Positions 4,211-62,690 of a stretch of DNA of 64,000 bases are shown one piece after another. The stretch covers positions 12,413,398-12,477,397 of the forward strand of contig OX459105.1 in assembly GCA_949775045.1 (NCBI GenBank), in the 5' to 3' direction. Under the pieces are notes generated by a model that did no database searches, was not told the DNA's origin, and was given only the letters and a program-made list of their open reading frames with translations. Each line of letters begins with the position of its first letter. The stretch's first letter is position 1. Made by a program: the position numbers and the translations under genes. This DNA comes from Metridium senile. Lineage: Eukaryota > Cnidaria > Anthozoa > Actiniaria > Metridiidae.

Positions 4211-7200
4211 GTATCGTTTATTTAAACTTTTCTTGGTTTACATGTAATGAGTATTGCGGAAATTTTCTAGGCAATATTCAGTTTTGGTGCCGATTACAAC
4301 AGTGTTAACTTATGAACGGGTATATAAGGCCTTCACGATTTCACAATTTTGCGAAATTATCCATTTCTGGCACTTTTTGGCTAGTTGGTTTACTTTTTCG
4401 AGTCCTATTTTACTTAGCTCAGTTACCAGTTGTTTTTGGTAGCCTGCTAGGAAGTCTAGGACGACGTTTACTTGCACTACGTTATAGTTAGGATAGAGTC
4501 TCTTTAATCCTGTTCTTAAGTCTATATACTTTTCTGTTTTCTGAAGATCTCTTTCAGTTATGCGACCGATGTTGCATACGGTTCCTTCGATGATCAGCCA
4601 CGTCTTGGTCTTCTTGTCCATTATTGTAATGTCTGGTTTGTTTGCGCCATTTTTTGGGGCAATGTCTAGATGTATTGGGATGTTCCACAGTATTTTGGCT
4701 TCGTCATTTTCTATGCAGCTTTTTGGGAGTGATTGTTTGTGCCACGGTGTATTGTCGTCTTGTTCTGTAAACCCAAAATGTGATAGGATTTGATGGTACA
4801 CAGGGCGAAGCATACGGTCATGCCTTGCCGTGTATAAAGATTGAGCGATACCTGAGCAGTTTGAGAATAGGTGTGGAATTGTTTCTTCTTTTTGATGGCA
4901 TAGTCTGCAGATTAAATCGCCTTCTCTATTGTTTAGTTTCTTTCGTTGGTAAGTCTTTGTTGTTATTAGTTGTTGAAAGATACTGGTATATACACTGTAG
5001 ACAACATCAGGGATGTTTTTCCATATCTTGTTTATATTGTAGCTTTCTTTCTCTAGATCTTGGTCTTTCCATTGCGTAGTAAGGTACTGTCCAACCCACG
5101 GTTGTTGCTTTACCTCCTCCTCCAGTTTCTTCTCTGTTTCTTTCCTAAGTATTGATTTAATGTATCTTGGCTGGCATTTAGATACTTCTGCACTAGCGCT
5201 ACTTGAAGTGATGGTGGTTGTTTTTTCTTTGGAGTCATATCTTATGTCCAGGTTTAGTTGGTGTGCATACGTTTTTGCATCCTTTATTATGGACTTTAGA
5301 GACTTCTTTTCCTTGTACAATTGGAAGGATGAGACAAGTTGGACATGTGGGTCAGCACTCGTTGTTAAGTAGTGTGCTGTCTTGATCTTAGTGGTTTTAT
5401 ACAGCATCTCTAATTGCTGAAGACCTTTACCTCCTTTGTGGAATGGGAGATAGAGTATAGCGTTCGACTCATGTTTGTGTTTACAAGTGTTCTCATTCAT
5501 TATTTGGCGTGTTTTCCTATCAAGTTGTTGTAGGTGTTGAATGTTCCAATCAGTTGTCCACATGTGATATGAGAGTACAGGAATTGCAAAGGTGTTTGTT
5601 GCAGCTATCTTTCGCGGAATTGACAGCGGTGATGACCATATAACAGATAGTCTTCTAGTGTATTCTTTACCTGCTACCTTTTGAACTTCCTTTTTGAGCT
5701 GGGTGATATTTTCATACTTTTTGTTGATGTGGACAGCTGCGCATTTGTTGATACCCCAGTGAAGGCCGATGTCCTTGAACATACCTTCGAGTGTGCTTCC
5801 GACTGTGGCGGCTTTGGTGCTATTCTTATGGTATGATTTCAGGTCGTCTACAAAGAGACTGTGTGTTATCTTGATGGTCTTATCATGAGAGAGTTTGTAG
5901 CCTTCTGTAGTACGTAAGTACCACGCTATTGGATTTAGGCAGAGTGTGAATAGTGTAACGCAAAATGAGTCTCCTTGTAGTATTCCACGGTTGATCTTTA
6001 TTGGGCCTATTGATGTTTGGCCTTCGGCTGTTTGCACATACATTGTTGTTTTCCAGGTTTTGACGATGTTATCAATAAACGAAGACAATGTCTTGTTTAT
6101 TCCATGATCTCTTAGCACCGTTGATAGCCATGTGTGGGACACGCTGTCAAATGCTTTTTTCACATCGACCCAAAGGCATGAGATGTTCTTCTTGTTTTTA
6201 GTAGCGTCTTCCATGATTGCTTTATCTATTAACAGGTTGTCAACACATCCCATAGATCCTTTAACGCCGCCTCTTTGGTCTAGCTGCATGAGGTGGTATT
6301 TGGACAGGTGATTCTCCAACTCGACGTTGACGACTGAAGTGACGAGTTTATACATTGTGTTAAGGCACGTGATAGGTCTAAATTCTTGTACTTTAGGGTT
6401 TTCATTCTTTGGTATCATTACTGTGCGTCCTTCTGATATCCAATCGGGAATTTTGTTAGGCTTGCTGTTGATTAAGCTAGTGATTGCAATAGCTATTGGT
6501 AGATGTAATGATGAGAGTTGTTTTAACCAGAAGTTAGTAATTTTATCAAGGCCCGGAGAAGACCAGTTCTTTTTCTTTCGTAGGCAGTTGTAGATTGTTT
6601 CTTTTGTGACTATTATTGGGGCTTCATGTTGTTCTGGTCCAGTTGCTGTTAATGCCTTACGCACTTCTGTCAGCCATTTACGATTATCTAGGTTTTCATC
6701 ATGTGCATTTTGCCATATTGGTATCCAAAATTCTTCAAAGTCTTCTTTCTTCAAGGTGTTTTCGTTTCTTTTTTCAGTCATCTCGTAATCAGTGAATTTT
6801 GGGCATTCTGTAGTAGTATCACGGTTTAGTATTGTTCTCAAGTGTCCGTAGAACTTTCCCTGGTCTTGATCGTATAAATTGTTAATTTTTCTTCTTTTTG
6901 CTGTTTCTATTTTATTCTTTCTCTCGTTCTTCAACTTTCTAAGCATGTTTATTTTCTTCTCTTTAAGTGTCACCAGTTCCTTCATGTTTATTTTACCTTT
7001 AATTTCTTTACTTATCCAATGTCTGTTTCTCCTAAGCTTTTTTGTCATTTTCTTGTTGTTTTTCACTCGGTTGATTTCCTCCGTCACTTGAGACGTTTGC
7101 CTTCTTAGTTTCGTAATCTCTTGTTCTAAAGTAATTAACCATCTTGGTTTTGGTTTTTGATCTTTTCTTTGTCTTGCTTTGTTTGTTTTGCTGTTCATTG

Positions 7201-7444
7201 TGCTCTTTTTAAAGGAAATCGCCGTAGCGTAAATTGAGCAGTTACATTCCCATAGGAATAGCGTTGGGTTTTCGGTTGGGCTTGTTTTGATTAAACTGTT
7301 TGCAATAGTTCGTAGTTGGTTTAGCTGTTTTTTATTTGGTGTTTTCCTTGTGAAAGTGTTCTCCTCTCTGCTGTTCCAGGTTCCTGGTTGGTTGACGATT
7401 TTTCGGTAAGTTTCCTCTGCAGTTTGTAGTAGCTCAGCATAGTC

Positions 7445-7446
<2 letters not shown>
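4211..7446 (-). mobile_element. R4/Dong-type non-LTR retrotransposon inserted in an (ATT)n microsatellite
   Basis: The element lies on the minus strand between a short ATT array at 4193-4210 (its 3' side) and a longer one at 7446-7521 (its 5' side). It consists of one long ORF and a 3' UTR of about 100 bp, with no poly(A) other than the triplets. A restriction-like endonuclease C-terminal to the reverse transcriptase together with a TAA-repeat target is the combination described for Dong-like elements of the R4 clade, which is the basis for the name. The 5' end is either complete or slightly truncated, because the ORF begins exactly at the junction. Confidence 0.82.

Positions 7447-7447
<1 letters not shown>
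4310..7447 (-). CDS. LINE polyprotein: reverse transcriptase plus restriction-like endonuclease
   Basis: This 1045-aa frame copies element RNA into DNA at a nick made by its own endonuclease (target-primed reverse transcription). Residues 1-280 are basic and helical. The RT core follows, with WVDVKKAFD near residue 425 (first catalytic Asp), a GILQGDSFC motif, and FVDDLK near residue 530 in place of the usual YxDD. A CCHC zinc knuckle, CX2CX8HX4C (CRLCHQKEETIPHLFSNC), lies near residue 845. The endonuclease signature KPDITIMDKKTKTWLIIEG follows near residue 936. There are no internal stops or frameshifts, so the insertion is recent or still constrained. The ATG straddles the junction: its A and T come from the microsatellite and its G is the first base of the element. 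In that frame the repeat reads as isoleucine codons with no stop. Confidence 0.85.

Positions 7448-7521
<74 letters not shown>
7446..7521. repeat. (ATT)n microsatellite at the 5' junction of the LINE
   Basis: This is a triplet array of about 25 units directly abutting the first base of the LINE, followed by a degenerate ATT/GATTAT stretch to about 7565. It marks the target repeat on the 5' side of the insertion. Confidence 0.93.
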
Positions 7522-7523
<2 letters not shown>

Positions 7524-7565
7524 ATTATGATTATGATTATGATTATGATTTTTATTATTATTATT

Positions 7566-8074
7566 AATTAATCAATTAATCTTTAATGTGACCTCTTCAT
7601 TGGTTGGTTGATAGGTCCTGTCACCGCTTTGTTATGTTTTATAGCGTTACACGCAAAATATCTTTTTTACGAATATCTCGCAAAGTAGAAAAGCAAAGCC
7701 TATTTTTTATCGATGGACAAGATGCTTTTTTCGAGAAATGTCCATTTTCTTCAAACATTTTGTCCCATGATACCTTAAAAAATAAAATGAATGTATCAAG
7801 TGACATTTATTAATTGTAGATGGTCTTCATTTCTCTTTGGATAGAAATGTTTTTCCCTAATTAATTACTATCATTTCACTATCTATTTTTTCTTCTTTTT
7901 AACGTCAAAATGTGCAAGGCGTTCCAACGGCCGAGGAAGACTGAACCCTACAAAGCAAGCATTTGTTGCTAAGCAACGTACAAAGCAACAGCCGCCATTT
8001 CAGAACACAGTTTTCACACAACAAACACATTGAACTTTTCCTCGCGCTAAAATTAATCTATCTTTGCTACAAAC
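7566..8074. other. Upstream region of the CFAP144 gene
   Basis: There is no coding feature here. The last 150 bases, including the block around 7918-8010, form the likely promoter and 5' UTR of the plus-strand gene that starts at 8075. I see no clear TATA box at a convincing distance. Confidence 0.4.
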
Positions 8075-43094: not shown

Positions 43095-44426
43095 TCAGTA
43101 AGGGATTGCAAGCACAATTGCAAAGACATGTATCGAGTTGTTTTGATAGTCAGTTACAATAAACCGGTCATTCCCAGGACTACACAAAGCACGCGCGGCC
43201 ACTGATATCCCATCATTCCTCACGGCACCGATGTAGACCAAACACGCAAACTTGTGCTGACTGCAGTCGATTGGCTTCTCAATGGAATGTAAATATTTGA
43301 CAATTGCCTCGCTGGTACTTCGTCCCAGTTGGTCGCAGTTTTCGGATTCGTACTCATCCAAATTTTCCAAATTTTCTTTCATAATTCGCCCAATGTTGTT
43401 TTTGATTTCTTCGTCACTATGATTAGGAAGAATCTGAAATGATTTCTCGTCTTTTTCTTCAACAGTGTTTTGAATTTGAGCACGAAATTTAGCCTCCATT
43501 GTTTTCTTTGACGAATTAAAAGCCTCAAGTGTCTTCCGAAGAACGGCGTCGGGAGCTGAACGTCTTCGGAAACCAGTCGGAAATCGTTTCGGTTTCGACG
43601 AAGGACTGGATGGTATGGAATATGAATGCGCGAGTTCATCACCGTGGGGGCTTGGTATCGAAAGGAAATTTGCATCATAATGATTTGAATTCGGCCAGAA
43701 ATTAAACTTTCCTTTAGAGCGCGGAGATTTTGGGCTGCCGCTTTTAGATTTTTTGTCGTTGCTTAAAAATGCTTTCATTCGTTTATAGAGGTCAACATCT
43801 TCAGTTTCGGGACTTATCGGAATGGACGAATCATTCGCAGAGGGAATTTGGAGGTCGTTGCTTGGCAACTCGAGCTTCAAATTCTCACGTGGGCTGTCTT
43901 TGAGTTTCTTCAAAGCGGTCTTTACTTTGCGCCAATTTTTCGTTCCTTTCGTGATTCCAGTTTCAGCTGAAACTTCTTCATGTTGTTTTTCACATTCTAG
44001 ATTCTCATTTTTAGAATTTTCGTTGTTATCATGGTACAATTTCCCGGCAAGCTTTGGTGACAGTTTAGCAATGACTTTACGTTCTTTCGACGTTTCATCA
44101 TCGTCATCTTTATTTGCCATAAGATTGAAGTCCTTTTTCAGTGAGCTCTGAAATTTTCGCATGAATTTTGGTGATGATTGCTTGAGTCGTTCAACGATTG
44201 AGTTCTGCAACACCTTAGAGTTATTGTTATTATCTAAAACGAATGAAAAGTCTTGTTGTTTCTCGTCGGACGGTGAAATAATAATTCTCCTTTCAGCAGT
44301 ATTGTTTTCATTGCCAACACTTTGAGAGCGGAGTTTTTCAACTTCAAGCACGCTCGACTTTTCTTGCTCAACCACAGACGTAAGAATGAACAATGGTGTT
44401 GCCTTAATGATGAAATCTTCTTCCAT
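43095..44426 (-). CDS. Tctex1-domain protein (dynein light chain Tctex type) with long N-terminus
   Basis: A single 443-codon exon. Residues 1 to about 345 are charged and low-complexity (KSKSGSPKSPRSKGKFNFW, SIPSSPSSKPKRFPTGF), probably disordered and phosphorylated. The last 100 residues look like a Tctex1 domain: a helix with IMKENLENLDEY, a second helix SEAIVKYLHSIEKP, then strands FACLVYIGAVRNDGISVAAR, DRFIVTDYQNNSIHVFAIVL. Tctex1-type proteins are light chains of cytoplasmic or axonemal dynein and of intraflagellar transport. Among families I know, the DYNLT4/TCTEX1D4 group also has an N-terminal extension, but this one is much longer. It could be a fusion or a divergent DYNLT4/5. The identification rests on C-terminal pattern recognition only. 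Confidence 0.68.
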   Translation of the reverse strand: MEEDFIIKATPLFILTSVVEQEKSSVLEVEKLRSQSVGNENNTAERRIIISPSDEKQQDFSFVLDNNNNSKVLQNSIVERLKQSSPKFMRKFQSSLKKDFNLMANKDDDDETSKERKVIAKLSPKLAGKLYHDNNENSKNENLECEKQHEEVSAETGITKGTKNWRKVKTALKKLKDSPRENLKLELPSNDLQIPSANDSSIPISPETEDVDLYKRMKAFLSNDKKSKSGSPKSPRSKGKFNFWPNSNHYDANFLSIPSPHGDELAHSYSIPSSPSSKPKRFPTGFRRRSAPDAVLRKTLEAFNSSKKTMEAKFRAQIQNTVEEKDEKSFQILPNHSDEEIKNNIGRIMKENLENLDEYESENCDQLGRSTSEAIVKYLHSIEKPIDCSQHKFACLVYIGAVRNDGISVAARALCSPGNDRFIVTDYQNNSIHVFAIVLAIPY

Positions 44427-46090
44427 ATTGCACTGTACCTTTGGAATGGCTGCGGTTTTCGTTTCAAAATAACGATTCTTCTTCGCTTGTTATGATAAGC
44501 GGTAGGTAACCAATTAATATAATGTTCGTGTCACACGTTTGCAGTTGGATTACCAAATAGTAAACATCAATGTGTGCTTTGCAATTCGGGTATTTCAGTA
44601 ACAAGAATCCATTGCCATCATTGTTAACTATGTTGCCATTGATGCTCTCCGTCTAAACAAATCTTTTTTTCAAAACTCAAAACTTTGACCCTTAAAAAAA
44701 CGTCTTTTTCAGTGTTATTCAGCTTTCGTTTTTTCCGTTTAGGATAAATTGAAAATACCTTGTTTGATCCGAGTCCAATTTGTCCGTTTACTGGTCTAAT
44801 GATAACAGTAAATGATCCAATTCAAAGAGCAGACCACTTGTTTCAGTCAATTACGCATCAAACATTATTCTTCGTAAAGAGTTTTCGTCCAAGATAAAGC
44901 TACATCAACCACTTGTTTTTCCATTAAACGCTAGTACGAGTAGTCTTCGAGTCCAAAGTCTATCCACAAACTCAAACAAACATGCCAAATGTTTACTGAA
45001 ATGTAGGCATGCAGGAAACAATGAGAGTATTTTGGTAATAATACTACTGTGTAGTGCATTGAATAAAAAGGAATTGAATTGATTATCATGACAAAGTTAT
45101 GCAGGGGAATATAAAGGAATTACATTAAAGCCAACAACTGAATGCCAAACAATTCATTAAAGCTGATGTTATTCTTTTTCTGGCTTAAAGTGACTTAACA
45201 TACATAACGACAGTGACCTCGGTCTATATTTCCCCTCCCCTTCCCCCTCCCTCAAGGGATCTCTTTTATGCATATTCAAATATAATTACTGTATTTACTT
45301 GAATAAGCGCCGCATTTTAACGCTATAAGTGTTAAGGCCCGGGCACCAAACGGTTTCAACATTCATTTGCTTCATGACAACTGATTCGTTCGATTTTGTT
45401 GAATGGTAAAGTTTAAATGCTTTTGAACTCTTTCAACATTGTTGAAACGTGACTGACGCAACAGCCCAAACTCATTATTAATTTGACAATATATATATTT
45501 AAAAATAAAATTACAAAATGAAAAACATATTTCATGTGTGTTGGTTTTTTTTAATTCATTTTAATCGTTAATAAACGGTTTTGTTAGTTTTTTTTATATC
45601 TGCTAAGCGTTTATTAACGATGACGTATTTAATAGAGAAAATAAGGAAGAATAGTACTATGAAACTATATCAAATTTAGAGGAAAATATCTCAAAAATGA
45701 GCTAAAACCCACCCATTTCAATTTTTCCGATTTTTCAATATTATGAGATTTAGTGTAAAATTGCTTATTTATTTTTGAATTCGTCGTTCTAAAAATATAT
45801 TTTAATTCTGTTTGTTCAAAATAAAATTCGTGTTCAAACTTGAAAAAAAATGTTCTTCCTACGCGTGATCGTTTAACAGTGCTCTTATAACTCTAAGTGA
45901 TTCGCCCTTTAATATCATTTTACTTTGGACTCAATTCAAAGACGATATTTTAGCAAAGTTCAATTTCAACCTGATGAGATGTTTTCAAACGGCCGCGTTG
46001 TTCGTGGTTTTTGTCGTGCTGATAGACTCGTTTGGCCATGGCATTTTCAGTTCTTGGTCATTTAGCTAGGTGAATGGCAATGTTTATATA
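44427..46090. other. Gene-free stretch upstream of the Tctex1 gene
   Basis: The proximal part is the likely promoter of the minus-strand gene. An AATTGAATTGATT retroposon-like tail lies near 45073-45088, and a block at about 45335-45475 (GGCACCAAACGGTTTCAAC, TCAACATTGTTGAAACGTG) looks like an interspersed repeat. No gene is supported. Confidence 0.45.
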
Positions 46091-46681: not shown

Positions 46682-49368
46682 TTAACAGCCCCTCACAGCC
46701 AAATCTCTTTCTTTTTCGCACACATAGCCTATTTTTTGCGTCCACAAACACAATAGATCATTCCATGTCATTGCTCTTTTCGCAACAACCATCGATCCGC
46801 AGGCTTCTTTTATTGAATTAGGTTCGCCGCTATGCCAGTTCTTAAAATGGCTGGCAGCTAGGGATGAACCATCAACCCAGGTGAACCGACGTTTTGAATC
46901 TGAAAAAAAACATGAATAATATATCATAAACACTCATTTCAAAAAAACCTTATCGCAGCTTAAGCAATAAGCATCAAACCAAGACCGAAATAAATGCTGG
47001 TTTTGTGCTGCTAATGTATTGAAATCAGACTTCAGTGTTTTCTAAAATGCGAGCATCAGTTCACGTACTTGTTATTGTACAACGATTTTTGAAATAAGTG
47101 TATATGAAGATGGCTGCAATATGATGAAAATTATATGTGCACTGAGAAATATGCAAATGTGCTCTTTTATATGGGCTCCCTTTGTCCAATTGGTAGGGCT
47201 CCTTTTATTAAGGTATAATAGCATTTACTGTGCGTACATTTAGCTATATAGGGTGCAGGCTCAAAAGTCAATTATACGTAAAAAAAGATATGAACCGGAC
47301 TGTTGGTAGGTAGGCCAATGTAGGTAGGTAGGATTACTTCAGTGATAGATATATTCATCTCTTCAATCATTCATATTCATTCATTCATTTATTCCTTCAT
47401 TCATTCATTCATCCATCCATCCATCCATCCCTTCATTCATTCATTTATTGAATGATTAATTAATTGACTGACTGGATGTCTGGCTAGCTGACCCACATGC
47501 ATGCAATGATTAATTGTTTGATTCATTGAAACGGCAACATCATGCACTTAATTAATTCGATGAAGTAGTACCTGCAATGAACCCAATCCACCCAAATGCT
47601 GGGGCTGGGAAATATGTATGGAGAAGAATCCCCACATAGTTGTTTTCTTTTTGAGATGAAAGTACAACTAGGTCACCTCCCATGGAAAGGCAGTTCTTAC
47701 GTGCTACATACCAGCTGTTGGTTGGCTGGGCGGGCACGTTGTAACAGGATGGAGATCCTTCATAGCTTACCCAGCCTCTTGGACAGGGCACTGAAAAAAG
47801 ATTAGTTTAGTAAATATATAGTAAAAAAGAATAGAATAGTAAATAGATGATGGATAGAATCTAAAATTGTTAATTTTTTTGGCAGACACGCCAAGTTCTT
47901 TGCAACATTCGAACACGCATAATTTTATTCAGTATTTAGTCACTCAACCAGAAACATTAAACTACAAAAAGAAGCAATATCTCATTACAACTTTACTTGT
48001 TTTTGATAACGACTAATAGTAATATATTCTCACTGGCCATTGTCCCTAGGTCGATGATTAAGATATGGGAACGATAGAACTCCATTGTTCTTAGCTAAAC
48101 AATGAAAATAGATCCTGAGGGACAAGGTGCTGAGGCAATATTCGCATTAAAAAGTGGGCGGGAGGGTGGGGGACAAAAAATACTCGAGTAAACTTTCTAA
48201 ACGCCATAGGATTATTCCCCGCCCGGGGAGGGTACTCCCTTATATTTACTATACGGGGACGTTCCGCCAAATAGGGTATGGTTTTTTGCCTTGGCGTCTT
48301 GAATAGGGTATACAATTTAGTCTAATTTGTCTTAAATTGCCTTACCTAGGGTATACGATTTCCCCCTTAAGTCTTGGATAGGGTCTACTTTTTACCAATT
48401 TGTCTTGAAATAGGGTACATATTTTTAGGATTCTGCTGTCTTAAATAGGGTCAGGGTTTAGAGGTACCAGCGGAACGTCCCCGTCAGAAACTGGGTCAAG
48501 TACCCCCCCCCCCCCCCCCCCCCCGGATTCCCCGTAACATCCATTTTCCCCTTTCATCCTACTATCCGGTTTGGTGTTGTTCGTCTCGCCAGTTTGGGCA
48601 ACTAAGGATGAGCTAATACCCCGTTGCATTGTTTATATAGTCTTTCATATCATTAATCATGCATGTCCCTTGGGAGTAGAGGGCCAGTGGGAATAGTCAC
48701 TAAATAGGAACTATAATAATTACACATGGTCATGGTCAAGTTATGTGCACTTTTTAGAAATTTGTTTTATCAGTGCAAAGTTAAAAATTCGTTCTTTTTT
48801 TTTTCGTCTTTTCTTTTTCCTCGTACAATTCAACCACAACTTTCAAAAAACAAATTCACGCACCAAATTCAGTAATTCGAAATATTAATCTCGAACTCAT
48901 GCATATGTTATTACATATACATAAATCTTTTTTTATGTCTACTTTATACACGTACGAGAGTTTTTCTCCGGGGTATCCGGTTTTCCTCCGCAAAAAATCT
49001 AAAATTTGAGAAGTAATCAACATGTGAGAAATGTGCTAAAATATTTAGGGGCTGTTTATATGAACGCGAGTTGTCCCTGCTAGGCAGGATAACTTTATTG
49101 TTTTATATTCCCCTGGGGACACAAAAAAATAGAGTTATCCCGGCTAGCAGGGAACACTCGCCTTCATATATACAGCCCCTTAATGTAGGGGGAGTGAGTG
49201 TGAGTGTGTCGCGATCGAATACTTTTAAATAAGGGAGATTCAGTAACGACTCTCTGGATCCCAACGTGAAACAATGATTCGTTTTTATTTATACTCACGG
49301 TAAGTGCCTTTGCCAAACGAGTCCATCAGCACGACAAAAACCACGAAGACCGCGGCGTTTGAAAACAT
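46682..49368 (-). CDS. Secreted C-type lectin 1, three exons, 168 aa
   Basis: Exons 49299-49368, 47572-47790 and 46682-46899 (70, 219 and 218 nt) join in frame at GTGAGT and GTACTA donors. Residues 1-20 (MFSNAAVFVVFVVLMDSFGK) form a signal peptide. One C-type lectin domain follows: CPRGW and SCYNV open the fold, then WYVARKNCLSMGGDLVVLSS, then FGWIGF. The calcium/sugar site comes next, with EPN (the mannose/GlcNAc-type signature) in HSGEPNS and WND in MTWNDLLC. The terminal Cys is in GYVCEK. The six expected cysteines are present, so the domain looks functional. Such lectins bind microbial or self glycans outside the cell. It lies divergently, about 2.2 kb from lectin gene 2. Confidence 0.9.
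46900..47571. other. Lectin 1 intron 2
   Basis: The intron includes a TTCATTCATTCATTCA/TCCATCCATCCATCC tandem tract at about 47360-47450 and a solo CAACGATTTTTGAAATAAG fragment near 47080 that matches the CACCYATTTC MITE tip. Confidence 0.6.
47935..48730. repeat. Repeat cluster in lectin 1 intron 1
   Basis: This includes a copy of the 9.6-kb repeat (CACTCAACCAGAAACATTAA) and a block from about 48217 to 48530. That block is bounded by GGGGACGTTCCGCC-type and GGCGGAACGTCCCC-type sequences, with several AATAGGGTA units and a C-homopolymer of about 20 bases at 48505-48524. The block is probably a MITE. Confidence 0.55.
49048..49179. mobile_element. 132-bp MITE with TTA duplication
   Basis: GGGGCTGTTTATATGAACGC and the near-complement ending ATATATACAGCCCC are flanked by TTA (49045-49047, 49180-49182). 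Inner arms share CCCTGCTAG/CTAGCAGGG. It is PIF/Harbinger-like. Confidence 0.82.
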
Positions 49369-49927
49369 CTCGGAGGTTGAAATTGAAGTATGATAAAATA
49401 TCGTCTTCAGTGAGTTAATTAAGTCCAAAGGAAAATCATATGAAATGGTGAATCACTTAAAGTTATATAATAGCATTGTTAAACAATATCGCGTTAGAAC
49501 AACATTTTTTTTCAAGTTCGAACACGAATTTTATTTTAAACAAACATAACTAATGGCTAATTCAAAAGTAAATAAGCAGCTTGCACTAAATGTCATATAT
49601 TGAGCAATCGTATCGAAGACGGAAAAATTGAAATGAGCCGGTGGGTTTACTTCATGTTATAAAATTCATGAATAATTAATGAGCAATTGACAAAAGAATT
49701 CACGTGCACGTCCGTGACTGAGGTTGTATATCCGATACAGATTCGTCCTGATTTGGATAAGTTTTAACTTGAACTTTCTCGGCCAGATTTACTTTTATCT
49801 TGACAATTTTAGTAAAATATTAAAGAACTAATGTTGGAGTTTCATAAGTGCTATACAATATTCGTGTCCGATCTGTATGAGATATACAGTGGCGAGTCGA
49901 AGACGATCGGCGGCACTCATATTGTAT

Positions 49928-51190: not shown

Positions 51191-51814
51191 GCCACGGACG
51201 GTTTTTACAGCCCGCTCAGTAAACAAAACACGTGACTTGACTTGACTGCAAGGTTTTTATTAAGGGCGAGCGAGTGGGGAAATACGGTTATATGATAGAA
51301 ACTAATATAACATTTGGCGTGCTCTTTCAGTTAACTGACATTCTCGTTATAGCACAGAGTATTTCACTCTTTTGAAAACAGTTGCGCAGTTGTGTTGTCA
51401 CGCAACAGTTTGCTTTTTGTTTGGCACAAGGTGCGCCTGCGCGGGAGACGATATATAAGTAAGCGTTAGCCGAGTGAAAGCATACTTCATAACCTTGTTC
51501 TATCACGTGAGGTACCACTATGTTTCCCAAAGCTACCGTACTGGTTTTCCTCTTCCTAGTGGAGATGATACCGTTTGCCAATGCAAAACCTGCCTTAAAC
51601 TACCGTAAGTAAATGAAAGCCTCATATACCACTAGGACATTAAGCGATCGACGCATCCTGTTACTCATCGCAGGAGTAGAACTGGATCGAGTTGAAATAC
51701 TCAGAGGTATTTTTACTCGTCTATGACTAACATTTCAAGGAAAAATATATTTTTCATAATAAAAGAAAAAAAAAACTTTTTTTCTGATAGTTTGATAATA
51801 AATTACCTATAATT

Positions 51815-51908
51815 TAGACAGTTTGATGTGTAATATGGCTTAAAGGCTCGTCAAAATACAGCGTCTCAATTGTAAAATATCCAGCCATATTACACATCAA
51901 ACTGTCTA
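51815..51908. repeat. 94-bp perfect hairpin in lectin 2 intron 1
   Basis: TAGACAGTTTGATGTGTAAT and ATTACACATCAAACTGTCTA are exact inverted copies, with the arms extending through ATGGCT/AGCCAT. It is a small MITE or hairpin. Confidence 0.85.
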
Positions 51909-53137
51909 GTAAGATATAAGTATCTAAGTATCCATAGTCACTTACTGCAAAAACTACTGAAAAGGAGTTACTCGAATAACAGAGAAGATCGATGTATTCA
52001 CAAGAAAAAGCCTTTAATTTGTAACAGTAGCAAAAGAACAACATATTTCACAAACTCAACTCACATATGATCTATGCCAGAGCTGGGTCTCGAATTGAAC
52101 CACAGCGGTCAGAAGAGCACCGAGAGGTTTGTAAACGATTTAATAATTAATTAATACAATAATAAATACATAATTAACACAGGCGCATGTTTTCCTTGTA
52201 TTTTAGCAAGACCTTATGTTTGCTTATGTTTTGAAATAACGTTTGTGGCTGGTGCAAGTCCAGTCATGTATTCATTTTCTTGGACGCCATGTTTGCCATC
52301 AACCGGTTACTGTTAAACTCACGGTACAAAATATCTTGACAGTCGAGATTTTGGAAAAATGTCCGGTCGGTCGATTTGTCCGTTAATAATATGTTATTTC
52401 AACCCCCTAACACTTGTCTCTTTTCAGGGCCCTGTCCCCATGGTTGGGTAGGCTATGCAGGATCTACATCCTGTTACAAGGTCCCCAGTACACCAACCAA
52501 CAGCTGGTATGTAGCACGTAAGAACTGCCTTTCCATGGGAGGTGACCTAGTTGTACTCTCCTCGACCAAAGAAAATAACTATGTGGCGATTCTTCTCCAT
52601 ACATATTTCCCATCCACAACATTTGGGTGGATTGGATTAATTGCAGGTAACACCGCTAGGATATACCTTAACTTTATTAACCTTGGGTGGCATAGGTGAC
52701 GTAGTGGTTCACTTATTTTCACAAGCTAACTACTTATGCTCTCTTGAAAAAATACGGTTTTTTTTCTTGCGGTCGAATTATCCTCGTTGACTCCCACAAA
52801 GGACTGGTGTGTCTTACAACCAATACTTTATGCTTTAGCTGATGTATATGAGCTCATGAATATCATATTTGTCTGTCCTAATCGATACGTATCCCATTCC
52901 TATTATCTCCTTCCAATCAGCAATGGAGTCCATTTCTCCACAAATAATACCGTATCTATTTATGTTATCTATCTAGATTCAAATCGAAACTTCATCTGGG
53001 TTGATGGTACACCATTGAATTCAAAGGCCAACAATTTCGTGAATTGGAACGAAGGCGAACCTAATAACAAAGAAGAAAATTGCGGAACTATGGTTGTAGA
53101 TATGACAAACAAATGGAATGATTATATGTGTCCAGGC

Positions 53138-54527
53138 TGTATCACCCGTAAATGTAATAACAACCGTAAATGTAATACCCACCGCAAATGTAATAAAAAT
53201 CAACCGTAAATGTAATACCCACCGTAAATGTAATAACTATCAACCGTAAATGTAATAACCGACCCCACCGTAAATGTAATAAAATTTAACCATAAATGTA
53301 ATAATCCAAACCCACCGTAAATGTAATAACATTCAACCGTAAATGTAACAAGTGTTTACACTGTAATTTAACTGAGCTTCAATACAGCATTGCAATACAG
53401 CATTGTGACGTCATGACGTCATCAACCAAAGGGAAAATGCATAGTGCATAATTGGAAGAATTAAAGATCTGTAAAATATGTATAATATTTTCCGCGACAT
53501 GCACGTGAGTATGATTGGCTCTAGACCGGCACTCCGTGACACCTAATTGAAAGACGTCCTACATAATATGTGACAATTGATGTGAGCTCTGTGGGCTTCA
53601 AGAATATTTCTACAGCCTCTTATGCAATTTCAATTTAAAAAAATTATTTTGTAAGGGTTCTTGTATATATTATTACAGGTGACTCGGCAGGTAACTCGGC
53701 AGCCTTTCATAACTGAAGATTCTCAAATTGCAAGAAGGTAATCCAGTTAGATATTTACAAGCATGGCCGAGACACTGGATTTAAACTAAAAGGAATCAGG
53801 AAAAAATAAAGCCTTAAATCAGGGCAGGATTCGAATCCGAAAACTCCCCAAGTGCAAAAATAAAAACCGTTCTGATCACTGACTCTATCTGGTCTGTGTT
53901 TCTTTTTCCTATCTTGTCGTTGCACATTTCTACTGAGAGTCCCATTTTCAGTTTCCCATTATTCATCCTAATGATAGTTCGGCTACTCGCGTGTTCCATT
54001 CGCATTTTAATTTGCATTCGTACTTGAAAATTATGTAAAAATATCATTTTATGTAGATGCTAATTAAAAGTACAAGCCTTATATTGTTGACCAATATAAC
54101 AGGGTACAGGGTACTCACAATCACTACAGTACATTCAGCATTCACATTCAGCATTTATATCAAACAGAAGTTCAAGATCACTTTGGAAAAAAAAAGAGAT
54201 ATTCCCTTTAGTTGCTGACGTCATAATGTCACGTGTTCATTTACAGTAAAGGAGGGAATACTAATTGCTATGCAATGCTGTATTGAAGTTCAGTTAAATG
54301 ACAATATAAACACTTGTTACATTTACGGTTGAATGTTATTACATTTACGGTGGGTTTCGGTTATTACATTTATGGTTACATTTTATTACATTTACGGTTG
54401 GGTCGGTTATTACATTTACGGTTGATAGTTATTACATTTACGGTGGGTATTACATTTACGGTTGATTTTTATTACATTTACGGTGGGTATTACATTTACG
54501 GTTGTTATTACATTTAAGGGTGATACA
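53138..54527. mobile_element. 1390-bp non-autonomous element with minisatellite inverted ends
   Basis: The ends read TGTATCACCCGTAAATGTAA and, complemented from the right, TGTATCACCCTTAAATGTAA. Both continue for about 210 bp as tandem ACCGTAAATGTAATAA-type units in opposite orientation (53150-53350 and 54307-54515). CAGGC is duplicated at 53133-53137 and 54528-54532. The interior (53350-54305) has no recognisable protein; it includes TGACGTCATGACGTCATCA and is inversely similar near both ends (AACACTTGTTACATTTACGG-type). I cannot assign the superfamily: the 5-bp duplication and TGTA..TACA termini fit none that I know well. Confidence 0.85.
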
Positions 54528-54734
54528 CAGGCAGCGTAAAATTGGGTTATGTCTGCGAAAAACATAAATAGTTTATTAAAGTTCGCTTTCAGTGAAAACA
54601 TATGACAACATAAACGGAAAGTAATGTTAACAAGTCAGCTTGTAATCAAAGAAATCAGCAAATATAATAAACTGAAAAGTAATTAAATGTGTTATTGATG
54701 TTTGTTTGTTGCTCGTTCTTCGACACTTAGACGC

Positions 54735-56123
54735 CTATTGCTGACACTGTTATTCTTAAAGGCTCGAGACTGGCACATCTTTATGGACTGCCGAAAACAC
54801 ACAAAACGAAATTAGCCATGCGCCCGATTCTCACAGCAACGGGCACATATAAATATGCCCTTGCAAAGTGGCTCGATAACAAGCTCAAGCCCCTGTCTAC
54901 CAACAAGCACACCATCACTGACATATTTGAATTCACAGATATCATCCAAGGTCACAAGATCAGTACCGGTGAAATCTTAGTGTCCTATGATGTGCAATCA
55001 CTTTTCACTAACGTGCCCCTAGACGAGACCATACATATTCTCGTGAATAAGGCCTTCACGGATGACTGGTTCAACAACACATACAGCCTTAACATCACCA
55101 AAACCGACCTCGTCGAGTTGTTAAGTATCGCAATGAAAAACCAACTGTTCCAATTCGATGGTGCACTTTACGAGCAGACAGATGGGATCGCCTTTATGTG
55201 TTCAGTCGAAGCAAACCTTGAAAAGGAGGGTCAACTTCCTGTCTTCTACATGAGATATGTCGATGACACGCTCACTACACTCCCGGATGTTCATTCAGCT
55301 ATCACCTTGCTACGCATCCTTAACCACGCCCATCCCGCCATTAACTTCACAATGGAGGTCGAGACAGAAGGTATGCTACCTTTCTTGGGTGTTGAATTGC
55401 ACAACCGAGCGCCTGATATCGAGACTAAGGTTTACGTGAAGCCTACGAACACAGGACTGCTACTCCATCACCAAATTAAAGTCACGTTGACAGTCGGTAC
55501 AAGCGAGGCCTATACTAACAACAATGTTAGACCGCGCCTACCGGCTATCATCCTCATGGACCTACTTCTCCGATGAGTGCGATCGCCTCAGGGATGTGTT
55601 TGTTCGACTGAAATACCCACCTAGCCTGATCAACTCTACCATCAAGAACTTTGTATCTTCAAGAGTAACAACAACGCTCTCTACGCGAGAGCCAGAGGAA
55701 CTTGTTCGTGTTGTCATCCCTTTTAAGGACCAGGTGTCCGCAGACACTGTGAAAAAGCAGCTCAAAGATCTTAGCACAAACGTCGGTACCATTATCGAGC
55801 CCATCTTTACCACCCGTAAGCTTGAAGAAGATCTCAAAACACGAGAGATGAAACCTACTATTGTGAATCAACAACGTGTCGTCTACTCTTTTAAATGTGA
55901 CCTGTGCGATGCAGGTTATGTGGGTTTCACAAATGGACACCTTCATGTACGCGTTGAACAGCACAAGCAAAAATCTTCATCTATATATAAACACTATCTT
56001 AAAGAACATAATACTACTGCTCCTGACGACTTAATTAATAACTTTATTGTCCTTAAGAAATGCTCTAATACTGAATTTGACTGCCTGCTGCAGGAGATGC
56101 TGTACATCAGGGAATTAAAATGA
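54735..56123 (+). mobile_element. Penelope-like retroelement fragment with GIY-YIG end, decayed
   Basis: Reading frames encode a Penelope-type reverse transcriptase: HLYGLPKTHKTK, LVSYDVQSLFTNVPLDET (first catalytic Asp), YMRYVDDTL (YVDD) and LPFLGVELHN. A second frame from about 55524 continues the protein to a GIY-YIG-like endonuclease (FKCDLCDAGYVGFTNGHLHV, ending at 56123). The 5' part of the RT is missing. Residues normally lying between DGIA and FMCSVE are deleted, and the two halves are in different frames near 55490-55570, so it is inactive. Penelope elements use the GIY-YIG nuclease to nick the target. It lies just after the severed lectin 2 exon. Confidence 0.88.
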
Positions 56124-56216
56124 ATGTACAGTCGGATTCCATCCGTGCCAAATTATTTACATAAATTAGTTTCTTTATAAGCGAAATTACTGCATATTGT
56201 AATTATTATTAAAAAA

Positions 56217-56785
56217 TTCATGAATAATTAATGAGACATTTTCAAAAGAAATCAAGACCATGACGAGTGTTGTAAATCTGATACAACACTAGTGTTGTAT
56301 ATCCTGATTTGCATAAGTTTCAACTGGTAATTTTACGGCAAAATTTATTTTAATCTTGAAAATTTTGGTAAAATATGAAAGAGCTAACCTATACATTTTT
56401 TAAGTAGTTTACAACATTCGCGTCCGTGTTGTATCGGCGATACAATCGCGCGCCTTCGGCTTGCGATTGTATCTGCCGATACAACACGGCCGCTCATGTT
56501 GTAAACACTACTTAAAAAATTCATGAATAATTAATGAGACATTTTCAAAAGAAATCATGACCATGACGAGTGTTGTAAATCTGATACAACACTAGTGTTG
56601 TATATCCTGATTTGCATAAGTTTTAACTGGTAATTTTACGGCAAAATCTATTTTAATCTTGAAAATTTTGGTAAAATATGAAAGAGCTAACCTAGACATT
56701 TTTTAAGTAGTTTACAACATTCGCGTCCGTGTTGTATCGGCGATACAACACGGCCGCTCATGTTGTAAACACTACTTATTTGATA
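56217..56785. repeat. Two 300-bp direct repeats after the Penelope-like element
   Basis: Copies start at 56217 and 56520 (TTCATGAATAATTAATGAGA, GAGTGTTGTAAATCTGATAC, TGATTTGCATAAGTTT). The first holds a long palindrome around GTGTTGTATCGGCGATACAA (56426-56492); in the second it is shortened. A related copy is at about 49665-49880. They may be repeated Penelope 3' ends or an independent repeat. Confidence 0.75.
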
Positions 56786-57627: not shown

Positions 57628-57846
57628 GGCCCTGTCCCATAGGCTGGGTAAGCTATGCAGGATCTAGATCCTGTTACAAAGTGCCCAGCCAGCCAACCAA
57701 CGGCTGGTATGTAGCCCGTAAGAACTGCCTTTCCATGGGAGCTGACCTAGCTACAATCTCCTCTCAAAAAGAGAACAACTATGTGGGGATTCTTCTCCAT
57801 ACATATTTCCCATCCACAACATTTGGATGGATTGGATTCATTGCAG
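57628..57846 (+). pseudogene. Orphan C-type lectin exon (third copy of exon 2)
   Basis: A 219-nt exon with an intact TTTTCAG acceptor and GTATTA donor encodes CPIGWVSYAGSRSCYKVPS, then WYVARKNCLSMGADLATISS and FGWIGFIAG. It has the same length and phase as exon 2 of lectins 1 and 2. I find neither a signal-peptide exon upstream nor an EPN/WND exon downstream within the window. A third gene with very distant exons, or a relic, is possible; I favour a relic. Confidence 0.8.
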
Positions 57847-59225: not shown

Positions 59226-60520
59226 TAAATGTTTATAAAAAAAGGTTAATTTATACCCCCAACCCCTTTTGGTTCGGAATACACTATCTCATTAAATTGT
59301 TTTTTTAAAAAGGTTAATTTATACCCACAATCCCTCATGGTTCGGAATAAACTATTGCATTAAAACATTATTTAAATAGGTTTACTATACCCACAATCCC
59401 TCATGGTTCGGAATAAACTATCGCATTAAAACATTATTTAAATAGGTTTACTATACCCACAATCCCTCATGGTTCGGAATAAACTATCGCATTAAAACAT
59501 TATTTAAATAGGTTTACTATACCCACAATCCCTCATGGTTCGGAATAAACTATTGCATTAAAACATTATTTAAATAGGTTTACTATACCCACAATCCCTC
59601 ATGGTTCGGAATAAACTATTGCATTAAAACATTATTTAAATAGGTTTACTATACCCACAATCCCTCATGGTTCGGAATAAACTATTGCATTAAAACATTA
59701 TTTAAATAGGTTTACTATACCCACAATCCCTCATGGTTCGGAATAAACTATTGCATTAAAACATTATTTAAAAAGGTTTACTATACCCACAATCCCTCAT
59801 GGTTCGGAATAAACTATCGCATTAAAACATTATTTAAATAGGTTTACTATACCCACAATCCCTCATGGTTCGGAATAACCTATTGCATTAAAACATTACT
59901 AAATAGGTTTATACCCACAATCCCTTTTGGTTCGAAATAAACTATCGCATTAAAACATTATTTAAATAGGTTTACTATACCCACAATCCCTCATGGTTCG
60001 GAATAACCTATTGCATTAAAACATTACTAAATAGGTTTATACCCACAATCCCTTTTGGTTCGAAATAAACTATCGCATTAAAACATTATTTAAATAGGTT
60101 TATACCCACAATACCTTTTGGTTCGGAATAACCTATCGCATTAAAACCTTGTTTAAATAGGTTTATACCCACAATCCCTCATGGTTCGGAATAAACTATC
60201 GCATTAATAATAATACAATTTATTTATATAGCGCTTTTTCCTTAAAAGCCCAAAAGTGCTTTACAATATCATAAATAAAAAAACTAATATTACAAAAACT
60301 TACAGATATATAGACTATATCATTGTGAGGATCTATATGATTTAAATATATTGATAAATGAATTATACATGTGGTGATTTACGATATGTGATAAACTATC
60401 GCATTAAAACATTATTTAAATAGGTTTATACCCACAATCCCTTTTGGTTCGAAATAAACTATCGCATTAAAACATTATTTAAATAGGTTTAAACCCACAA
60501 TCTCTTTTGATCTGTGAATA
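59226..60520. repeat. Tandem array of about 62-65-bp units, roughly 18 copies
   Basis: The unit reads CCCACAATCCCTCATGGTTC, GGAATAAACTATTGCATTAA, AACATTATTTAAATAGGTTT. The unit at the left border is the LINE coding sequence itself (CTACAATCCTTTGTGGTTCG, encoding FRTTKDCR on the minus strand), so the array is derived from it. Units nearest the LINE are the most divergent and the middle ones nearly identical. A retroposon interrupts the array at about 60207-60390. Confidence 0.92.
60207..60390. mobile_element. Short retroposon inserted in the array, about 17-bp duplication
   Basis: The insert begins TAATAATACAATTTATTTAT, ATAGCGCTTTTTCC, with AAAGTGCTTTACAATATC following. ATAAACTATCGCATTAA occurs immediately on both sides. 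The long duplication fits LINE-driven retroposition on the minus strand. Confidence 0.65.
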
Positions 60521-62219: not shown

Positions 62220-62690
62220 AAAAGGCTTGAGAACAAAATATTAAATTCTTGAGAAGATATGAGAAATATAACTAAAAGCTTCAGACCAAAATATTAAATT
62301 CTTGAGAAGATATGAGAAATATATTTAAAGGGTTCAAACCAAAATATTAAATTCTTGAGAAGATATGAGAAATATATTTAAAGGGTTCAAACCAAAATAT
62401 TAAATTCTTGAGAAGATATGAGAAATATATTTAAAGGGTTCAAACCAAAATATTAAATTCTTGAGAAGATATGAGAAATATATTTAAAGGGTTCAAACCA
62501 AAATATTAAATTCTTGAGAAGATATGAGAAATATATTTAAAGGGTTCAAACCAAAATATTAAATTCTTGAGAAGATATGAGAAATATATTTAAAGGGTTC
62601 AAACCAAAATATTAAATTCTTGAGAAGATATGAGAAATATATTTAAAGGGTTCAGACCAAAATATTAAATTCTTAAGAAGATATGAGAAT
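62220..62690. repeat. Tandem array, 53-bp unit, about nine copies
   Basis: The unit contains CCAAAATATTAAATTCTTGA, GAAGATATGAGAAATATATT and TAAAGGGTTCAAA. The inner copies are essentially identical and the two outer ones diverged. Confidence 0.95.

Follow-up and report, generated by a model that had tools for sequence, protein, structure and literature searches.

A C-type lectin gene of Metridium senile is interrupted in its last coding exon by a 1390-bp insert, which is very probably the product of a recent jump of a non-autonomous foldback-type DNA transposon into the gene. This explanation is based on the 5-bp duplications flanking the insert and its sister copies, on the identical copies found elsewhere in the genome and on the small number of changes that are the insert's own. 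The gene, designated lectin 2, lies on the forward strand of the window, which means here the whole stretch of 64,000 nucleotides analysed. Though clean and young, the event is an ordinary disruption of a gene by a transposon. It is a well-bounded example of a young transposon breaking a lectin gene, and it marks a DNA transposon family with recent movement in an animal genome. If an empty allele segregates, the locus would also provide a natural knock-out for studying the lectin.

Coding exon 1 of lectin 2 (51520-51604, forward strand) opens with a start that was judged by eye to be signal-peptide-like, MFPKATVLVFLFLVEMIPFANA, and ends at the donor ACC|GTAAGT with a donor score of 5.69. Exon 2 (52428-52646, forward strand) encodes the first half of the lectin domain and matched PF00059 by itself with an E value of 6.9e-06. 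The portion of exon 3 preceding the insert (52977-53137, forward strand) ends ...KWNDYMCPG; its calcium-site motifs, EPN and WND, are situated upstream of the cut. These coding exons amount to 465 nt in a single frame with usable splice sites. Exon 3 with its read-through into the insert gave no Pfam match when taken alone and one PF00059 match when joined to exon 2. Lectin 2 is a C-type lectin domain gene, the PF00059 profile being matched significantly over its length. At a threshold of E 0.001, a search with the protein detected no relative in the protein database, so no orthologue from outside the window backs the gene model, and no lectin relatives were confirmed in viral contigs. The cut domain matched 145 distinct chain sequences of solved structures, and the names among the 60 of these matches listed were mostly those of C-type lectins and related receptors. 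A small inverted-repeat element with arms of about 27 bp, as estimated by eye, is located in intron 1 (51813-51913).

The window contains further lectin sequences. Lectin 1 is an intact three-exon paralog on the reverse strand (46682-49368), with exon 1 at about 49298-49368, exon 2 at 47572-47790 and exon 3 at 46682-46899. Lectin 3 (57628-57846, forward strand) consists of exon 2 only; neither its exon 1 nor its exon 3 was found in the window or in 50 kb of flanks (30 kb right, 20 kb left). The dN/dS values between the exon 2 pairs of the cluster were 0.43-0.59. A decayed inverted copy with a one-base insertion in its exon was observed at 45705-46046, being 77% identical to the 5' region and exon 1 of lectin 1 (49302-49648). 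The locus looks like a small lectin cluster that is gaining and losing members amid transposons.

The original prediction that exon 3 is cut by a mobile element was borne out, as the insert occupies 53138-54527 and kindred copies with 5-bp duplications occur elsewhere. The predicted duplication CAGGC was found exact on both sides, at 53133-53137 and 54528-54532 (both forward strand). The missing end of the domain is indeed kept in frame beyond the right duplication, where 39 nt (54533-54571, forward strand) encode SVKLGYVCEKHK and a stop codon. They are followed by the likely original 3'UTR (54572-54690, forward strand, the end at 54690 being a guess) with AATAAACTG at 54666. Addition of this tail to exons 2 and 3 gave a Lectin_C score of 69.5 bits over profile positions 3-107 of 107, compared with 61.9 bits over positions 3-97 of 107 for the read-through form. 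The alignment of the tail and 3'UTR with those of lectin 1 scored 90, while the maximum of 300 single-letter shuffles was 61. The 3' region of lectin 1 also contains AATAAACTG (46622), and the two signals are 6 columns out of register in the alignment, so the signal itself was not counted as aligned. Owing to the gain in the Lectin_C score and to an alignment score above all the shuffles, the tail is not attributed to chance and is, as judged from its sequence, the real end of the lectin 2 domain. The expected agreement in length with the intact paralog held in part: in lectin 1 as in lectin 2, the two final cysteines have nine residues between them, but lectin 1, ending ...LCLWTQKIGYVCEKERDLAVRGC*, continues seven residues beyond the end of lectin 2.

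The insert, TGTATCACCC...GGGTGATACA, has TG...CA ends with TGTAT at both termini. Its left inverted arm (53138-53394, forward strand) is composed of ten tandem units in 257 bp with the core ACCGTAAATGTAATA at no more than one mismatch, and its right inverted arm (54271-54527, reverse strand), also of 257 bp, of nine units. The arms are 96.1% identical with 10 mismatches, and their arrays have periods of 18, 22 and 40. At the same tolerance of one mismatch, the core was matched 19 times in the window, in all cases within the insert, with 0.01 matches expected. No transposase-like frame was present among the frames of at least 35 codons, the longest stop-to-stop frame being 81 codons, and no integrase frame was seen in the 1390 bp. 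The arms of short tandem units are those of a foldback-type element, and the 257-bp arms with fixed-length duplications at independent sites are those of a TIR DNA transposon. Because of a B-box-like GATTCGAATCC noticed by eye, the middle of the insert was considered as a tRNA-derived SINE, which was rejected as Rfam gave no tRNA match; the sole match listed for the middle was a snoRNA family, far below the cut-off.

The 22-nt repeat-unit pattern was detected at 98 + 95 sites of the 389-Mb assembly, on contig 11 of which the window is located, and the reversed control at 0. From the places listed among these sites, 35 further stretches of the element (20 + 15) were fetched. Both ends, at no more than 2 mismatches in 12, were recognized in 22 of the 35 copies, and an exact 5-bp duplication was present in 21 of these 22, or in 22 of 23 when the window copy is included. 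The copy with both ends but without the duplication, L014, is rearranged and 461 bp long. Thirteen of the 35 had no end pair within the stretch fetched. L027 fails the end-pair rule due to a loss near one end, yet GTCTT was seen by eye on both of its sides. Apart from the window copy, TGTAT ends were seen in 20 of the 22 copies in which both ends were recognized; L041 starts with TGTACC and L043 with TGCATC. The duplications of the family are G+C-rich (67 of 110 bases), the window having 30-40% G+C. No frame of at least 90 codons was found in L024, L015 and L017. In L020 there are two frames: one of 100 codons, which gave two Pfam matches below the cut-off (E 0.06 and 0.19), and one of 105 codons, which lies in the element's own middle and had no Pfam match. 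L024 is an element carrying a second insertion in an arm. Other sequence is held by L020 and L024 (3.1 and 3.6 kb), through nesting or rearrangement. Exact copies of the element numbered 0 in viral contigs and prokaryote genome contigs.

The recency of the insertion is supported by the element family, not by the intact 39-nt tail. The window copy was aligned with 14 others, all fifteen being 1250-1450 bp long. L009 and L011 were letter-identical over 1391 bp, and so were L023 and L028. The flanks of these pairs resembled each other no more than shuffled flanks did, which indicates separate insertions, and the duplications also differ within the pairs (TGTAC/AATAC for L009/L011 and GGGTC/GTATT for L023/L028). 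Identical copies at unrelated sites show that members of the family have moved recently. Between the window copy and its nearest copies there are 12 substitutions. In comparison with the 14 other copies, it has 3 private substitutions, corresponding to 0.22% (Poisson 95% range 0.04-0.63%), and one private 1-bp deletion. As only 14 sister copies enter the comparison, these private changes are upper figures for those acquired since the insertion, barring gene conversion. Since private alleles are absent from the identical pairs, the window copy counts as young, though other copies are younger.

The insertion had been proposed to be very recent or polymorphic on the ground of its undamaged tail. 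Private changes and identical sister copies uphold the recency, whereas the argument from the tail did not stand. Simulations that assumed a given share of indels left a neutral 42-nt tail open in 91% of cases at 1% divergence, in 68% at 4% and in 39% at 10%, and dating by the intact tail was ruled out due to this low power. Dating by the identity of the arms was ruled out as well, since 6 mismatches already separate the arms in the subfamily consensus, which was built from seven copies including that of the window.

The 5-bp duplication would have arisen from a staggered cut of the target by the transposase of a putative autonomous partner. A transcript of the interrupted gene would continue from exon 3 through 23 codons of the left arm (53138-53209, forward strand), encoding CITRKCNNNRKCNTHRKCNKNQP, to the stop TAA at 53207-53209. 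It may end at an AATAAA within the element, which occurs at 53192, 53278, 53805 and 53859, or become a target of nonsense decay on read-through. Missing from the protein would be the domain's last strand and the last conserved cysteine, which lies beyond the cut. The partner of this cysteine presumably sits in exon 2, following the usual disulphide pattern; it would be left unpaired, and the predicted product would be unstable or absent. Due to the lost strand and the unpaired cysteine, this copy of lectin 2 most likely represents a loss-of-function allele. What remains of the original gene end would be the tail and, downstream of it, the poly(A) signal.

The insert could instead act as a new intron: a donor at the left end of the element, either T|GTATCA (53139) or C|GTAAAT (53148), would be joined to the CAG within the right duplication (54528-54530), with the frame preserved and 1 or 4 residues added. 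Pairing of 37 donor and 10 acceptor candidates gave eight in-frame routes, or nine with other margins. A duplication-derived acceptor is also an arrangement described for introners, transposons with short duplications that land in coding exons and whose duplication offers a splice site (PMC9860276, available passages). However, introners are spliced out as introns, while the splice-site strength of the window insert is at chance level, an equal or better route being found in 185 of 400 dinucleotide-shuffled inserts. The best pair was weak, 2.51 + 1.26, against 4.16-7.57 for the donors and 3.41-12.32 for the acceptors of the cluster, on scores whose site frequencies were not trained on Metridium senile. 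Among the papers listed in the literature search, none dealt with a transposon spliced from an exon. Such splicing is considered very unlikely, but because of the in-frame GT-AG routes to the tail the loss of lectin 2 function stays a prediction.

The alternative that lectin 2 was a pseudogene before the insertion, which would then be a bystander, is suggested by the solo exon 2 of lectin 3 and by the decayed inverted exon-1 copy in the cluster. We regard this as unlikely, as the exons, splice sites and tail of lectin 2 are all open and the dN/dS values of the exon 2 pairs point to past constraint, the end of which is not datable. A misjoin of the element into the exon is highly improbable: a repetitive family can mislead assemblers, but the perfect 5-bp duplication lies flush against family-typical ends, the lectin sequence resumes in frame beyond the insert, and the window has no N and belongs to a contig of 17.6 Mb. 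The recent jump of a foldback-type transposon into lectin 2 is the preferred explanation.

Arms of this kind are shared by foldback elements such as FB of Drosophila and TU of the sea urchin. Tetris of D. virilis resembles the window family in its long arms of short tandem units and its middle domain, and further in the lack of a transposase and in rearranged copies (PMC4079207). The duplications of Tetris are 8-10 bp long and are linked to Mutator, compared with 5 bp in the window family, and this comparison was made by description, not by sequence (PMC4079207); the 8-10 bp duplications of a Mutator-type foldback element are not seen here. Galileo, of the P superfamily in Drosophila, has long inverted repeats and, in some subfamilies, internal tandem repeats that may be binding sites of the transposase (PMC3573991). 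It is set apart, again by description and not by sequence, by duplications of 7 bp versus 5 bp here (PMC3573991). In the available descriptions, Ginger2/TDD elements share the TG...CA ends and long inverted repeats, but their ends are TGTNR versus TGTAT here, they prefer AT-rich RTATAY targets versus the G+C-rich duplications of the window family, and they carry a Gypsy-like integrase gene, no frame of which was seen within the insert itself. Transib and ProtoRAG elements have 5-bp duplications and CAC... termini; the insert begins with TGTAT.

None of the foldback groups considered fits, as described, with duplications of 5 bp, and the family therefore deserves classification. No foldback element with a 5-bp duplication was found among the 12 of 21 matches listed in the literature search, nor, in the available parts of the sources, any lectin exon interrupted in this way. 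The TG...CA ends, the strict 5-bp G+C-rich duplications, the arms of units with a 15-bp core and the identical young copies might mean that the family is moved by a transposase group new to foldback elements or undescribed and that it is active in Metridium senile now, which we hold to be a doubtful, minority interpretation.

Other sequences were observed in the neighbourhood. A reverse transcriptase remnant with two overlapping frames is located at 54731-56123, about 60 bp past the AATAAA of lectin 2. It is probably Penelope-like, some of its relatives having the GIY-YIG domain PF01541; the named relatives, among the 120 of 1698 listed, were mostly from corals and sea anemones, with one crinoid. 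The remnant is adjoined by two direct copies (96%, about 254 bp) of an inverted-repeat element at 56193-56748. On the reverse strand, 4313-7567 contains a reverse transcriptase frame of 1085 codons without a stop, with RVT_1 and zf-RVT, which is possibly a young LINE. A Tctex-1 domain protein is encoded in one open frame at 43098-44489; it represents 4 contigs in the protein collection, the longest being 2275 bp, and a relative at 36% comes from a JGI contig. Tandem arrays of 66-bp and 53-bp units are situated at 59252-60207 and 62234-62689, respectively.
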